Of a stretch of DNA of 64,000 nucleotides, positions 31,329 through 60,005 are shown one piece after another; the stretch's first letter is position 1, and each line of letters starts with the position of its first letter. The notes below the pieces were generated by a model. The model made no database searches and was not told the DNA's origin. It saw nothing but the letters and a program-made list of their open reading frames with translations. The stretch covers positions 20,418,501 through 20,482,500 of the forward strand of contig CM060196.1 in NCBI GenBank assembly GCA_030549335.1, written 5' to 3'. A program made the translations under genes and the position numbers. The DNA is from Pontederia crassipes. Its lineage: Eukaryota; Streptophyta; Magnoliopsida; Commelinales; Pontederiaceae.

Positions 31329-34062
31329 AAGAATAATAAAAAGCATGAAAATGATATACATTTTTATTATCAAGTGACCTTAATATCATTGGCTTAAAAA
31401 TAATCCAAACTAACTCGACTGATTGCAATGAGCGTAGAGCCTCTATGGCTTGGTATAAGGAGCACCCATAATTGATCGACATCTTGTTTCCACTTTTTAC
31501 AACCTTTTCATTACATACATATTTGTAGACCTCTTAATTAGGGGTCATGCACTACAATCCTCAAGCATTCCAAACATGTTTTGACTTCAATTAAGAATTA
31601 AGCATCCTAAGATTACCATCAACACATAAATTGAAACCCTTAAGATCAATTTCATAGAAGGAAGTTATTTTGAATTCTTAACACTAAGAGAGGTTTATCC
31701 TAATTTCAAACTATCCTTCAATCAACGTATGCATAAGAAATGAGAGAATTTAAAGTTTCATTCGGAATCAAATTAAAATGAGAATGGGTTCACACTATTA
31801 TATACTATTTTCATGCCTTAATTGTTGAATGCAATTAGAGATTTATTCTTCATCTTCTACTATTCATGCTCTTCAATTGACTTCCTCTCTAATGCCTTGG
31901 CCTTCTTGATTACCTCCTAGTGCACAAGGAAAAGGGAACTATGACACATGAAAATGGTGGCTGAATTATAGGGAAAAAAGAGATAAAAAAGAGAGGAATG
32001 AGTGTTCTATAACCCTACTATATTGTCAATAGACACAAATTACCCTTGTACACAAGGTATTTTCCATCATAATCATTACAAGAACAAAGAGGTATAATTG
32101 GTAAAATTTGAACCTCCTACATCGATGACTTTGGTGATATTTTATTTCCTTTTATTGTCATTTGCTAAATATGCTTCACAAATAGTTTTTTGCAACCATT
32201 TCCAAAGCTGAATACGTTCAATAAAGTTACAAACCATGGTTACGGCATTTGGATACGATTTATAATGGCCAAAATTGACAAATTTGTTGGTTCACTTTTT
32301 GTTCATGTAAAAAAAATATGTGCACCAATTTTAGTGGGTAAAAAAACTATGTTTTGAGAGAAAATAAAGGATAGTTAAAGTTGAGAGAAAACAAGAGTTT
32401 GGTTAAAAGAATAAAAGAAAGGAAGAGAAAAAAGAACATAATGTTAATTAAGATAAATTAATCAAGATGGATTAAAATAAGAGTTCAAGATTTATTTTGG
32501 GTTGGGATTAGAGTTTTAATATAGCTAAAACTTAATCCAACTAGAACGAATTCCCAATAAATTAATCCCATCTCTCCTTAAGTTTCTCTCTCCCTAAGCA
32601 ATTATCTTCTCTTTTTGTGATTTTTTTAAAAAAACCCTAGGTGTAGGTGTATGAGTGCATATAACATTCGATCACTTTTGGATATTCTTTAGAAGGTTTT
32701 CTTAAAACATTTAAGAGATATAAGACAAAGTTGAGAAAAGATAGAAGATAACAATAATGAGTTTAAGGACAATAGAGGGAGGAAGTACACAATTAAACTC
32801 ATTTGTTCTCCTTATCATGAGGACAATCGTGAGTTACATACATTAGTTGTCATTTGTGAGTTACATTTGTTCTCCTTGAGTCTCTAGTATTCACATATTA
32901 GTTGTAGAATGACAAAAAACCTAAGATGAGTCATTTTTGTAACATGAATGTAAAATACACGTATGAATTGCTAATCGGCTTTGGAACAAGCTCATCATGA
33001 GGATGACAAATTTTTCACATACATAGAGATCTTATAAAGAGTCAAAACGCTATCTTTCTAAAAAAAAGAAAATTAACATGTTTTATAGGAGGATGTATCT
33101 TGATTTTATGAGTCAAAGGAGTCTAACTCCGAAAATACAATATTCTATCCAATAATAGAAGTTGAGACTGTACATGATGTTATACCTTTGAAAGTAATGG
33201 AATAACTTAATAATAATATATCCTCAGATTTGAATAGATTAATAATAAGGGATGTGAAATTCTCATGTCTTTACCGATATTGATATAGAGAATTGTACAA
33301 ATTTTATTATTTATAAAGAAGAACTAATCTTTGGTCATTCAAAATTATGGATGATCATCATGGGATATAAAATGGATTCAACTGATTAGAATTGTATATG
33401 ATAACTTATTTAATTATTGAAAAGTAGGCGATATTAATGAAAATTCAGGAGAAAGTATCAAATTAATGACACACTTGATGGTGTGAAATGAGATTGGTTG
33501 TCAAGGATTATATTGACATATATGATAATTTTACTTATAATAATTGAATAAACATGAATATTTGAGAGCTTAATGTTTAAAAAATAATGATAAAGCGAAT
33601 AAGATTGATTGAAAAGTTATTGATGACTTAAAAAAAATCACATAATGACACAAAAGTTATCATGTGATGTGAGTTGAATTGTTTTTGTTGTGAACAAAGC
33701 AAATTATTGCATGAATTATGGACATTATGAATGGTGAGAGAAAGTTTGAAATGATGTTACTATAGGTAGGTGATATTTTACTAAATGAATTTGAAATAAA
33801 AATTGAAGACATATCTTGTATTCAATTTTTTCATGACACAAATTCAAGGATATTGAGTTAGAGTTAGGTACAATATTTGAATAAAATATTAAAATAATTT
33901 TGGAGCACTTATGATGGGAAAAATGATTTAGTAAAATTGAGTGTCCCAAAATAAGGTAAAACCATTTGGAAGATTCCTATGTGTATGTAATGGGAAACTT
34001 GATGTATGTAATATTATGATACCACTAATTTTAGCTTTTATAATATGCTTGATTAGCAGAAA
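31329..34062. other. Intergenic, no gene seen
   Basis: AT-rich. Around 33100-33950 the sequence has a stop-ridden, formerly-coding texture on the + strand, but I could not match it to a transposase or polyprotein. An LTR-leader-like C/T-rich patch lies at 32560-32640. Confidence 0.45.
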
Positions 34063-34798
34063 CCAAAATAATCATGATAAGAATAATTATAGAGTCATCT
34101 ATTATTTTTTAAATTTAAGAAGCATAATACGATTAAGATCAAGTTGATTTCTTGAGACTATTTGAATGTGGATTTCAAATATGATGCATGTGTGTATAAT
34201 TGAAAGTCCATAAGGGGGCACTCATTTTATTGGGTAATCAAGTAATATAATTGTTTTTTTTAATATAATTGTTTCTTGAAGTTACAAGAAATAAGATGTG
34301 TGCTTAACATACTAAAGATTAACTATAATGTATGTTTAGACATTCGTGATGTTTGACTTAGGTGATACCGTTAAGAACTAGGGTTTAGTATGCTCACAAA
34401 ATGAATGCATAAGTTGCAACAAACTTAATACACAAAAGGTCAACAATTTAAAGAGAAAATATGTCAAAGGCAAAATATCACTATACTAATCATATAGTAC
34501 CAAAAAGGTTGTAGTGATCATGATGCCTAACGGTAATATGGCAACTTATTTTGTCATAAAGGACCGTTTGGTACATTGTTGATTTAATTAACAATAACTT
34601 TGATTACACTAAAATAGATTATCAATATTTAAATTATCGATGATATCATATTATAGTGTTTGATAAGTACTTGTAATACAAATAATGATTTATCAAAATA
34701 CCCTTAAAATTATTTTATATTTTGATAATATATTATTAAAAATAAGCAAAAAAAAAGAAGAAAAGAAAAGTAAATATAGATAAAAGAAGATGAGGCAA
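34063..34798 (+). repeat. Direct duplication, copy 1 (partner 46054-46750)
   Basis: This ~736-bp block aligns along its length with 46054-46750 in the same orientation, roughly 90% identical by eye with small indels. Copy 1 contains the left end of a hAT-like MITE. Copy 2 has lost 17 bp there between TTTG microhomologies and diverges inside the MITE. The pair flanks about 11 kb of nested retroelements. Confidence 0.85.
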
Positions 34799-35081
34799 AA
34801 TTAAAAGATATTTATAAAAAAGATTTTGAACAATAAAAAAGATTAAGTTGCATTATACTTATTTATTAATAAAATATTTAATATTAAAATATTTGATTGA
34901 ATGAATGTTTTCGTTAAAGTTTATTTCGGTCAATTGATAATGTGGAAAGACATCTTTCTTACATGTTATCTGGATCACCAATGAGATGGTAATCAAGTGC
35001 GTCAAATGAGGATGGGCATTGAAAATTTTAAATTAGATAATCGATAATCTATCTAGATTACCTCATACCAAATGACCCTTA
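34559..35081. mobile_element. hAT-like non-autonomous element, about 520 bp
   Basis: The left end AAGGACCGTTTGGTA and the reversed right end AAGGGTCATTTGGTA are inverted repeats. The interior is AT-rich and non-coding. Only its left half is present in the second duplication copy at 46.5 kb. Confidence 0.7.
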
Positions 35082-46000: not shown

Positions 46001-46053
46001 TCCCTTTTTTTTTCTATTTGCTATTAGACACGCATAAGCAATAATCGCAAAAC

Positions 46054-46750
46054 ACAAAATAATCATGATAAAAATAATTATAGTCATTTATTATTTCTTA
46101 AATTTAAGAAGCATAGTACGATCAAGATCAAGTTGATTTCTCGAGACTATTTGAATGGGGATTTCAAATATGATGCATGCATGTATAATTGAAAGTCCAT
46201 GAGGGGGCACCAATTTTATCGGGTAATCATGTAATATAATTGTTTCTTGCAGTTACAAGGAATAAGATGCGTGCTTGACACACTAAAGATTAACTACAAT
46301 GTATGTTTAGCCATTCGCGATATTTGGCTTAAGTGATATCTTTAAGAACCACGATTCAGAATGCTCACACAACAAATGCATAAGCTGCAACAAACTTAAT
46401 ACACAAATAGTCAACAATTTAGAGAGAAAATATGTCAAGGTAAAATATCGCTATACTAATCATGTAGTAAAAAAAAGTTGTAGTGATCAAGATGCCTAAC
46501 GGTAATATGACAACTTATTTTGGTACATTGTTGATTTAATTAAGAATAATTAAATCGCACTAAAATAGATTATTAATATTTAAATTATCAATGATATCAT
46601 ATTATAGTGTTGGATAAGTACTTGTAATACAAATAATAATTTATCAAAATACTCTTAAAATTATTTTATATTTTGATAATATATTATTAAAAATAAGCAA
46701 AGAAAAAAATAGAAAAGTAAATATAGATAAAAGAAGATCGATGAGGCAAA
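46054..46750 (+). repeat. Direct duplication, copy 2 (partner 34063-34798)
   Basis: See copy 1. Alignment starts at AAAATAATCATGATAA and ends at GATGAGGCAAA. The MITE left end is partly deleted at 46514. Confidence 0.85.
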
Positions 46751-48060
46751 TTTGACAAATAATATACTATTTTATATGTTAATTATATTACATCAAATGA
46801 AAAATATATTAAAATTATAATATATTATTTCATTATATTACATAAAAATAATATGTTATTTCATTTTTTCTAGATTATAAACTTGGTTAAATACCATCAA
46901 CTTGCCGAATTTTGAAATATAACATATTATTTTATATTTTAATCATATTACATCAAATGAACAATATATCAAAGTTATAATATCTGTATCATTATAATAA
47001 GTATCGAAAGGTTAGAATTATACTATAATAATATAGTTATAAAAAATATTAATTTTTCCGTAATTACAAAGTATTTGAAAAGGGAACCAAACGCCCTATA
47101 CAATGTTTTTTGTGTTGGGAAAAAAATTTCGTAAGGTACTTTTTAAATTAGCTTACTGTAATTTTTCGAAACCGTAAAGATCTACAAAAATTCCAGACAT
47201 GGCCCATGAAATTTTGGTGAAGTTTAACCAACGGCGCTTCGTTGATTTTTCATTGATTCCAGACATGGCCAATAAAATTTTGGTGAAGTTTAACCCACGG
47301 GCGCCTCGTTGATTTTCATTGTATTGGTTGTCAATGTTATAGAAATCGAATAGAACTAGTGATCCAATCCGATTGCATGCCAAAAATGATTTTAACATTG
47401 AAACGAAGAAATTCGATTGAACCGATAAGTTGGTTGATTCGGTTCAATTCAAATTTTGAAAAAGATAAAAAAAATAAAAATAGAAAAGTAAAAAAAGAAA
47501 ACAAGGAACGAATATAACATTAAAAAGGAGGGAAAATAATGTGCATAAAATTAAATAAGAATGAAAATAAAAAAAGTCAAGTATTTAAATTGAATAACAT
47601 TAAAATAAAAAATTATCAAATGACGTAAATAAAAAAATAAAAAGAAAAATATTAAAAAAGGAATAAGAATAATTTAAAATAAAATTTATTAATATAAGAT
47701 CTATCTTCATTAAATAATAAATACTAAATCAATAATAATCTATTTATATTTATAAGTTAACCATTATTATTTATCATTATTAGAACTTTTAATAAATAAA
47801 AAATTATGTTATATTAATTTGTAATCTTATTAATAAGCTATTAGTACAATATTCATATACTATATCATATAACATATATTATACCTTTATAATAATTATA
47901 AATAATATTATTTTAGTAAAGATATGTTTAATTCGATCAAAGACCAAATAATGATTATCTCGATTAAAGACCCAATAATGAATTCAGTCCATCCGGTTAT
48001 GAAACATTGGACTGGTTGCACATGTTATATATAGCAGTGTAACGAATGATGATCAACAAA
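46751..48060. other. AT-rich intergenic region
   Basis: It holds a ~55-bp direct repeat (46762-46812 and 46920-46982, with ATTACATCAAATGA), and 47190-47258 is repeated at 47259-47321 (ATTCCAGACATGGCC...TTCGTTGATTTTCATTG). No gene. A 3' UTR of the neighbouring FRS gene may reach in from the right. Confidence 0.55.
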
Positions 48061-58167: not shown

Positions 58168-58183
58168 TGTTTCATTAGAAATA

Positions 58184-58355
58184 CAATAACAACAAAGCCT
58201 TATCCCACTAGGTGGGGTCGGCTACATGGATCATACGACGCTTCGTTGATCCATGTTCATGAGATTCGACAGGGTTTTACGCTGGCTGTCGGGGCCTAAC
58301 ACAACCCTCCTCCTTTATCCGGGCTTGGGACCGGCTATAAAACATAGGCGGAGTT
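58184..58355 (-). mobile_element. SINE with TTG-repeat tail, copy 1
   Basis: On the - strand it starts AACTCCGCCTATG and ends CTAGTGGGATAAGGC, then TTTGTTGTTATTG. A perfect 16-bp target duplication TGTTTCATTAGAAATA flanks it (58168-58183 and 58356-58371). The 3' end matches the plant Au-SINE/RTE-type tail (family knowledge). No clear pol III B box is seen, so a 5'-truncated RTE LINE is an alternative. Confidence 0.88.
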
Positions 58356-58371
58356 TGTTTCATTAGAAATA

Positions 58372-58919: not shown

Positions 58920-58935
58920 TAAATCGCACTAAAAA

Positions 58936-59036
58936 TGGCTGCTAGAGAAACTGGTGCTCTTCAGGCTGCCAAAAATTTGTTAGAAAAGCAAGTCGAGGAA
59001 CTTACATGGCGCCTTCAACTGGAAAAACGCATTAGG
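58936..59036 (+). pseudogene. Orphan myosin XI exon
   Basis: The frame (its A of ATG supplied by the target duplication) reads [14 protein letters not shown], then [15 protein letters not shown], the neck/coiled-coil start of plant class XI myosins. It stops at CGCATTAGG/GTGAGT, a good splice donor kept from the parent gene. No motor domain, IQ exons or tail are nearby. The parental gene is not in this window. Confidence 0.88.
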
Positions 59037-59710
59037 GTGAGTATATTATATCTTGCTATAGTTGGAATAAGTACATCACTCCTCTTTCTTGTACAAAAAG
59101 CAGGGGAGACAGAGTAGTTTTTTGGAAGATGTCCCACCTTATTTGCTTTTTCTCCCATGTTTTTTAGAGCATTACCCTCCATCCATACTTGTAAAATTTT
59201 ATGACTTTTTGGTATTAATACAAAGAGGATGATCACCCAACCTCTCCTAGTCATCCTTTTCCCCCTCAATAGACGAATCTCAAGATTATTGATCTTTACG
59301 TCATCTTCGCCATCACTACTGCAGTCATTCAGGTATTGGGCACCGAGCTAGTGCTTTATTTATTTATTTTTTTCTTTCCAGTTCTTGTGTTTGTGTCACA
59401 AACAACTAAAGACGGCAGCAAAAGTGGTATTTTTATGGGAAGGCATAATGGTATTTTCCTTTAATTTTTGAGTTTTCCTTGCAACTAAAGACTAAGTTCT
59501 GTTGTTCATCTAAGACCACCCTGAAATTTGGCTCTTCTCAGTGTATTTGTTTTTAGCAAACCTGGTGATCTGTATTAAAAATGCTGTGGAGCAGCTGATT
59601 TCAAGTCAGAATTGACTGATTGATCTTAGTTTTGGTCGATTCCAAGCTGATAAACTAAACGACCCTCTTCAATCAACTGGATCAGAATGCTTAACTGGAT
59701 CAGAATGCTT

Positions 59711-59907
59711 AACTCCGCCTATGTTTTATAGCCGGTCCCAAGCCCGGATAAAGGAGGAGGGTTGTGTTAGGCCCCGACAGCCAGCGTAAAACTCTGTTGA
59801 ATCTCATGAACATGGATCAACGAATATATTGAGCGGAATGGCGTCGTATGATCCATGTAGCCGACCCCACCTAGTGGGATAAGGCTTTGTTGTTGTTGTT
59901 GTTGTTG
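59711..59907 (+). mobile_element. SINE with TTG-repeat tail, copy 2
   Basis: Starts at AACTCCGCCTATG like copy 1 and ends GGGATAAGGC, then TTTG(TTG)n. Very similar to copy 1 but with about 18 extra bases near 59823-59840. An 18-bp tandem duplication (AACTGGATCAGAATGCTT) lies just before it at 59675-59710. It forms the 3' end of the larger retro-insertion. Confidence 0.88.
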
Positions 59908-60005
59908 TAAATCGCACTAAAAAAAGAAACCATAAGTTCATAAAAAATGAGCAGATCGTGGACCCTGTCTGGAGGCAGTTTGCGAATAAGAACTTGGATC
60001 TTCTG

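Follow-up and report, generated by a model that had tools for sequence, protein, structure and literature searches.

A SINE-tailed insertion in Pontederia crassipes joins partly spliced pieces of a myosin XI gene and DAD1, probably through two template changes

Introduction

A close precedent for the insertion described here comes from Magnaporthe grisea, where the accessible sections of Gogvadze et al. 2007 (PMC2104539) report a tripartite chimera of WEIRD, Mg-SINE and the MGL LINE with perfect 14-bp target duplications, attributed to a double template switch, and give GCC*A/U as the consensus of Magnaporthe switch sites. The same sections describe two new mouse chimeras with 15- and 16-bp duplications in addition to two earlier human ones. 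Human LINE-1/mRNA chimeras are catalogued in PMC13174262, in the available part of which 15 of 17 genes today lack an intronic LINE-1. Chimeric ends are on record for the Arabidopsis Sadhu elements, where the extracts at hand raise possible transduction or template switching (PMC2848041), and the accessible text on Drosophila R2 reports template jumps to U12 snRNA and tRNA (PMC3414825). Partial texts further describe L1-like retrocopies in dicots (PMC4838847), Au SINEs within wheat introns (PMC5787218) and the pairing of (TTG)n-tailed SINEs of the tobacco TS type with RTE-clade LINEs (PMC3747384). Among the titles and abstract openings listed for open-licence papers, we found no plant SINE chimera with gene pre-mRNAs.

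The insertion resembles the Magnaporthe chimera, as presented in those sections of PMC2104539, in the direct fusion of three transcripts, the target duplications, the probable use of SINE RNA as a template and a GCC at a switch site. In Magnaporthe the LINE starts and is joined by a SINE and by a noncoding RNA that is highly expressed, whereas here the SINE would have started and the partners are fragments of protein-gene pre-mRNAs. As in the human LINE-1 chimeras, mRNA pieces lie 5′ of the retroelement, but the human cases in the available part of PMC13174262 involve mostly first exons and many joints at splice sites, suggesting trans-splicing, while the joints here fall inside introns, in an exon 1 and at the SINE end. 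The Sadhu elements are also plant non-LTR elements with chimeric ends, yet their extra sequences measure 19 bp and 150 bp and have no identified gene source in the extracts of PMC2848041. The likeness to R2, as described in the accessible part of PMC3414825, lies in an enzyme that, at the 5′ end of its own RNA, moves on to another RNA; R2 differs in its small stable acceptor RNAs, its single jumps and its autonomy. For a plant, the locus offers a well-anatomised candidate double template switch whose two gene sources and empty site are identified.

Results and discussion

Layout of the insertion

We analysed a 64,000-nucleotide stretch of the Pontederia crassipes genome (the window, on contig C14) and searched for sources of the insert in the window's own assembly (1.13 Gb, 43 contigs). 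A 16-bp duplication, TAAATCGCACTAAAAA, is found at 58920–58935 and again, identically, at 59908–59923, and is extendable on neither side. The 972 bp between both 16-mers open with TG and a 99-bp myosin exon followed by an intact splice donor (GTGAGT at 59037), and close with a SINE whose (TTG)n tail abuts the second 16-mer at 59908; this outline agrees with a preliminary description of the locus. With up to two mismatches allowed, the 16-mer had three matches in the window, against a mean of 0.11 per shuffle (100 shuffles), and the third match, at 46551–46566 with one mismatch, is located in another repeat. A direct repeat pair was observed at 34043–34823 and 46034–46823 (80–94% alike by piece), the second copy of which holds the 15/16 match at 46551.

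All pieces lie in sense orientation on the forward strand and are fused directly, and their three source loci are unlinked. After the 5′ target-site duplication come two bases, TG (58936–58937), the end of an upstream myosin exon closing in ...AAAATG, which are joined to the next exon (58938–59036, 99 nt, 33 amino acids) although an intron separates the two in the matching C12 and C11 loci. Of the myosin intron that follows, the first 235 nt (59037–59271) are present up to joint 1, where the final 13 nt of DAD1 exon 1 begin (59272–59284), succeeded by DAD1 exon 2 (59285–59332, 48 nt) and the first 379 nt of DAD1 intron 2 (59333–59711), which end at joint 2. The full-length SINE, 196 nt including its tail and with family matches in the genome, occupies 59712–59907 and is followed by the 3′ target-site duplication (59908–59923).

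The preliminary description had read this layout as the 5′ transduction of a single myosin pre-mRNA holding an intronic SINE. This did not hold, as 59272–59711 is DAD1 sequence from another contig rather than myosin intron, and a source locus contiguous with the SINE was not found. In the assembly search with the 776 bp upstream of the SINE, the full stretch was matched only in the window, and no second locus carrying the pieces together was found (20 of 20 candidates scored). A locus in which the exon, its intron and the SINE are contiguous was likewise not found, the myosin similarity stopping at 59271. The insert does not have the make-up of a processed pseudogene, with two introns partly retained and a (TTG)n tail instead of poly(A); it has that of a chimeric retrogene, in which different transcripts are fused directly, a single duplication pair encloses the whole and there was one insertion.

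The myosin and DAD1 pieces

The myosin piece (58937–59271) matches loci at C12:74936798–74937140 (minus strand, 94%) and C11:16563411–16563741 (plus strand, 95%), and the similarity ends at 59271 in both. The protein of the C12 parent has Pfam Myosin_head and IQ domains and its closest solved relatives are myosin V; we take it, and the insert, to belong to class XI. In C12 a 340-nt intron separates the exon ending ...AAAATG from the next, and it is absent from the insert, where TG runs directly into GCTGCTAGAG. The four A before TG may be exon or target (microhomology), such that the upstream junction, which looks copied from RNA, is read from two bases plus four ambiguous ones. The next intron, 855 nt long in C12, was kept for 235 nt and cut off at joint 1. 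Differences from C12 amount to 9 substitutions over 344 aligned columns, which include 10 gap positions; in 331 gap-free columns, private changes number 4 in the insert, 5 in C12 and 8 in C11, and C12 is the closer myosin by shared sites (8 vs. 5 for C11).

No SINE is present at the place of the joint in the C12 myosin. In the C11 myosin, a SINE tail fragment without the SINE 5′ part lies about 150 bp beyond the joint place, in the same intron, and a later intron has a full SINE copy. Before the C11 fragment (L004:1962–2034), a 5′-truncated tail, stands an inverted (CAA)n that looks like the tail copied back. Window positions 59072–59271 comprise an old repeat of the myosin intron, up to about 200 bp long, which occurs also at L012, L013, L016, L018, L019 and L020 and whose similarity stops near joint 1. 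Joint 1 may be the 3′ end of this repeat, L012 and L013 matching to within a few bases of it.

The DAD1 piece (59274–59711) matches C9:2201067–2201503 (minus strand) at 95%, and the 13 bases of exon 1 match that locus at 13 of 13 positions. The C9 gene encodes a 115-amino-acid protein of the DAD family (Pfam PF02109; an NCBIfam search of DAD1 gave nothing useful), and the stretch was found otherwise only there. DAD1 itself was found only on C9, its four genome matches being the three exons of that gene and the insert. Exons 1 and 2 are separated in C9 by an 87-nt GT-AG intron and are joined exactly in the insert; judged by the 13 exon-1 bases, the DAD1 piece must certainly have been copied from an RNA from which the upstream intron was gone. 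Intron 2 was kept for 379 of its 1108 nt, and the A at 59711 may belong to it or to the SINE. Compared with the spliced C9 gene, the piece has 18 substitutions and 3 gap positions over 441, and no SINE is present at the joint position in C9 intron 2.

The proposal of an unspliced template therefore stood in part: the following intron was retained in both genes, but the upstream intron had been removed in both. An incompletely spliced RNA template, priming at the SINE tail and mobilisation of a host exon, all put forward in the preliminary description, were supported.

The empty site

The right flank of the insertion matches C13:34954893–34955405 at 92% over its full length, and when 601 bases of the C13 site are aligned with the two window flanks put together, 544 of 598 positions agree. 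A single copy of the 16-mer, TAAATCCCACTAAAAA (15/16), stands there with nothing between the flanks, giving within the same genome the empty site that had been sought in a relative. One copy with nothing between indicates one insertion. Judged by their similarity, the C13 site and the window's C14 site are presumably homeologous, and on the alignment the insertion would postdate the parting of these two related target sites and would have brought all three pieces together. The differences within the parts (4/331 in the myosin piece, 18 in the DAD1 piece and 2 in the SINE) appear to fit a single event without proving that the parts are equally old, and dating from private changes is coarse.

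Other SINE chimeras in the genome

Within a survey of SINE copies on C1, one of the 27 tailed copies (L037, C1:1738086–1739600, minus strand) has a 1,490-bp extension, consisting mostly of bromodomain-gene pre-mRNA, within a 17-bp duplication. The gene source lies at C9:66587493–66588626 (98.8% over 1172 aligned positions), a related C10 locus reaching 95%, and the bromodomain stretch is unspliced, its upstream intron having been kept. Six shared bases, TTCTGT, link the gene stretch to a 79-bp stretch that stands directly before a SINE at C11:46978663; a related place on C4 is without the SINE. The gene source and the SINE-flank source are thus different loci, and the C9 gene has no SINE at the joint. 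In its first 34 nt the terminal SINE of L037 does not have the base changes of the C11 SINE, and therefore C11 is a source by its flank only. L037 also contains a second SINE, which neither related locus has and which probably inserted later, nested within it. The SINE from C11:46978742 on (L076) appears by eye to differ from its family chiefly in C-to-T and G-to-A changes, such as methylation decay would leave.

Two further SINE-tailed copies, on C3 (L025, 18307.6–18310.3 kb) and C5 (L026, 54125.3–54127.8 kb), have a common 5′ sequence of 2.3–2.4 kb, each with its own 15-bp duplication; native versions of this sequence are found on C9, C10 and C15. The joint lies 23 bp before a different, 5′-truncated SINE of C9's own, and C10 and C15 have no SINE there. 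Across 2253 gap-free columns, C3 and C5 have three common changes not found in C9, C10 or C15, and private changes number 6 in C5, 0 in C3 and 8 in C9; 51 columns set C3, C5 and C9 apart from C10 and C15, which differ from each other in 13 more. The C5 copy was apparently made from C3, which would be a 5′ transduction and with which these data agree, an unseen common parent being the alternative. At the 5′ ends of both copies we noted a short repeated stretch beside the duplication.

Origin of the insertion

We consider it likely that the insert arose in a single round of target-primed reverse transcription of the LINE type, with SINE RNA as the first template and two changes of template after it. 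Both gene pieces carry exon–exon junctions and so were copied from RNA. From the tail and the duplication we infer the involvement of a LINE enzyme, which judged by the (TTG)n tail was probably of RTE type. The enzyme would nick the target, start on the 3′ tail of the SINE RNA and copy it to its 5′ end, then jump to a DAD1 RNA whose end lay within intron 2. After copying through exon 2 into exon 1, a second jump would lead to a myosin XI RNA ending within an intron. Synthesis would run back through the exon and into the end of the one before it, and the product would then be joined to the target, perhaps aided by the four matching A. The acceptor RNAs look like nascent or broken nuclear transcripts, with the upstream intron removed, the 3′ end in the next intron and no poly(A). 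Acceptors of this kind, spliced upstream and ending in an intron, suggest an enzyme that uses nascent nuclear RNA, although partial splicing is no general rule, since L037 kept its upstream intron. The DAD1 sequence immediately upstream of joint 1 that was left uncopied ends in GCC, which recalls the Magnaporthe GCC*A/U switch sites, but the triplet alone has a chance of 1 in 64 and a single joint proves nothing; the base that follows is G in DAD1 where the consensus in the accessible sections of PMC2104539 has A/U.

The DAD1 donor may be a copy now lost and possibly SINE-bearing, which would leave one jump instead of two; such a loss is possible because the DAD1 piece, the myosin piece and the SINE all differ from their nearest sources. 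A partly spliced transcript of a DAD1 copy or allele with the SINE in intron 2 would then have been primed at the SINE tail and needed a single jump to myosin RNA. The SINE at the joint is full-length, like an ordinary intronic insertion, the DAD1 part is 4–5% diverged from the sole DAD1 gene found, and a genome with duplicated segments (the C11 and C12 myosins, the C13 and C14 target sites) may once have had a further DAD1 copy, since lost. We nevertheless judge this account unlikely. The C9 DAD1 has no SINE at that position, and host parents of all three chimeras are without this SINE at the joint; the hosts of the two other chimeras are 98–99% alike to their copies, so that a separate lost copy would be needed for each, which supports template jumping over the lost-allele account. 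Ligation or trans-splicing of the RNAs before reverse transcription would be expected to give the same DNA, and these are routes proposed for the human LINE-1 chimeras in the available part of PMC13174262. With neither joint at a splice site, joint 2 at the SINE 5′ end and six bases shared at the L037 joint, as template switching can give, we find such prior joining of the RNAs improbable.

Plants fill DNA breaks with copied pieces, and such a patchwork could be imagined to come from filler DNA at a repaired break or from a segmental duplication. The spliced junctions, the 16-bp target duplication, the tail abutting it and the exact empty site argue against both, making them very improbable. 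Least credible, to the point of being virtually discarded, is the myosin XI pre-mRNA with an intronic SINE: the exon, donor, intron start and SINE tail that it predicts are present and the C11 myosin carries two downstream SINE pieces, but the 440 bp of partly spliced DAD1 that intervene refute it, C12, the closer myosin, has no SINE there, and the C11 fragment is without the SINE 5′ part. The lack of a SINE at the joint in the parental locus was the very observation that had been named as telling against it.

With SINE-primed reverse transcription and two template changes as the preferred reading, the insertion would exemplify how exons from unrelated genes can be joined in one step, splice sites included, and suggests that mobile elements may shuffle gene pieces in plants this way. 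A wider proposal, which we hold with rather more doubt than belief, is that reverse transcription primed on SINEs in this plant habitually makes one or two jumps, from the SINE 5′ end onto nascent host pre-mRNAs, building multi-gene exon patchworks that can be mobilised again (C3 to C5) as plant 5′ transductions. If true, exon shuffling would have an engine in a non-coding element about 190 bp long, which would sample intron-containing RNA at the chromatin.

The SINE family and the C1 survey

Among 40 scored of 1444 candidates, the SINE had 36 other near full-length places in the genome at 93–99% and two partial ones; genome matches to its first 34 nt were given as 2129 forward and 2129 reverse. 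It differs by two substitutions from the majority of the four nearest copies compared, and at one of the two the derived state may be that of the L005/L007 pair. The (TTG)n 3′ end is as in the (TTG)n-tailed SINEs with an RTE-clade partner (tobacco TS type). The name Au SINE was rejected on account of this tail, as Au-like SINEs end in a T tract according to the available text of PMC3747384. Searches of the window with ARAGORN and Rfam found nothing; a diverged tRNA-like promoter could escape both. In five other copies the duplication lies at most 4 bp from the SINE start, compared with 776 bp upstream in the window insert. A SINE of the same family lies 1.4 kb away in opposite orientation (58180–58360, minus strand) with its own exact 16-nt duplication.

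The survey covered 30 consecutive SINE copies of those listed on C1, where 70 further places are on the list, and 27 of the 30 are tailed (L029, L031 and L035 have no tail), with an upstream reach of about 5.5 kb for L030, L032, L037, L043, L054 and L057 and 1.5 kb for the rest. The duplication was within 5 nt of the SINE start in 17 of the 27 tailed copies and displaced in three (by 12 bp in L042, 43 bp in L040 and 1490 bp in L037); a clear duplication was absent within this reach in seven (L030, L032, L038, L043, L050, L054 and L057). As a chance control, the 3′ flanks of the 27 SINEs were compared with the upstream stretches of other copies, and an exact match of at least 12 nt occurred in 4 of 702 pairs; three of the four were 20 nt long, for which the TA-repeat flank of L050 probably accounts. 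By eye, L042 (C1:2766896) has the SINE's own first bases repeated, and the 43-bp 5′ extension of L040 (C1:2346250) contains target sequence copied from a little way upstream.
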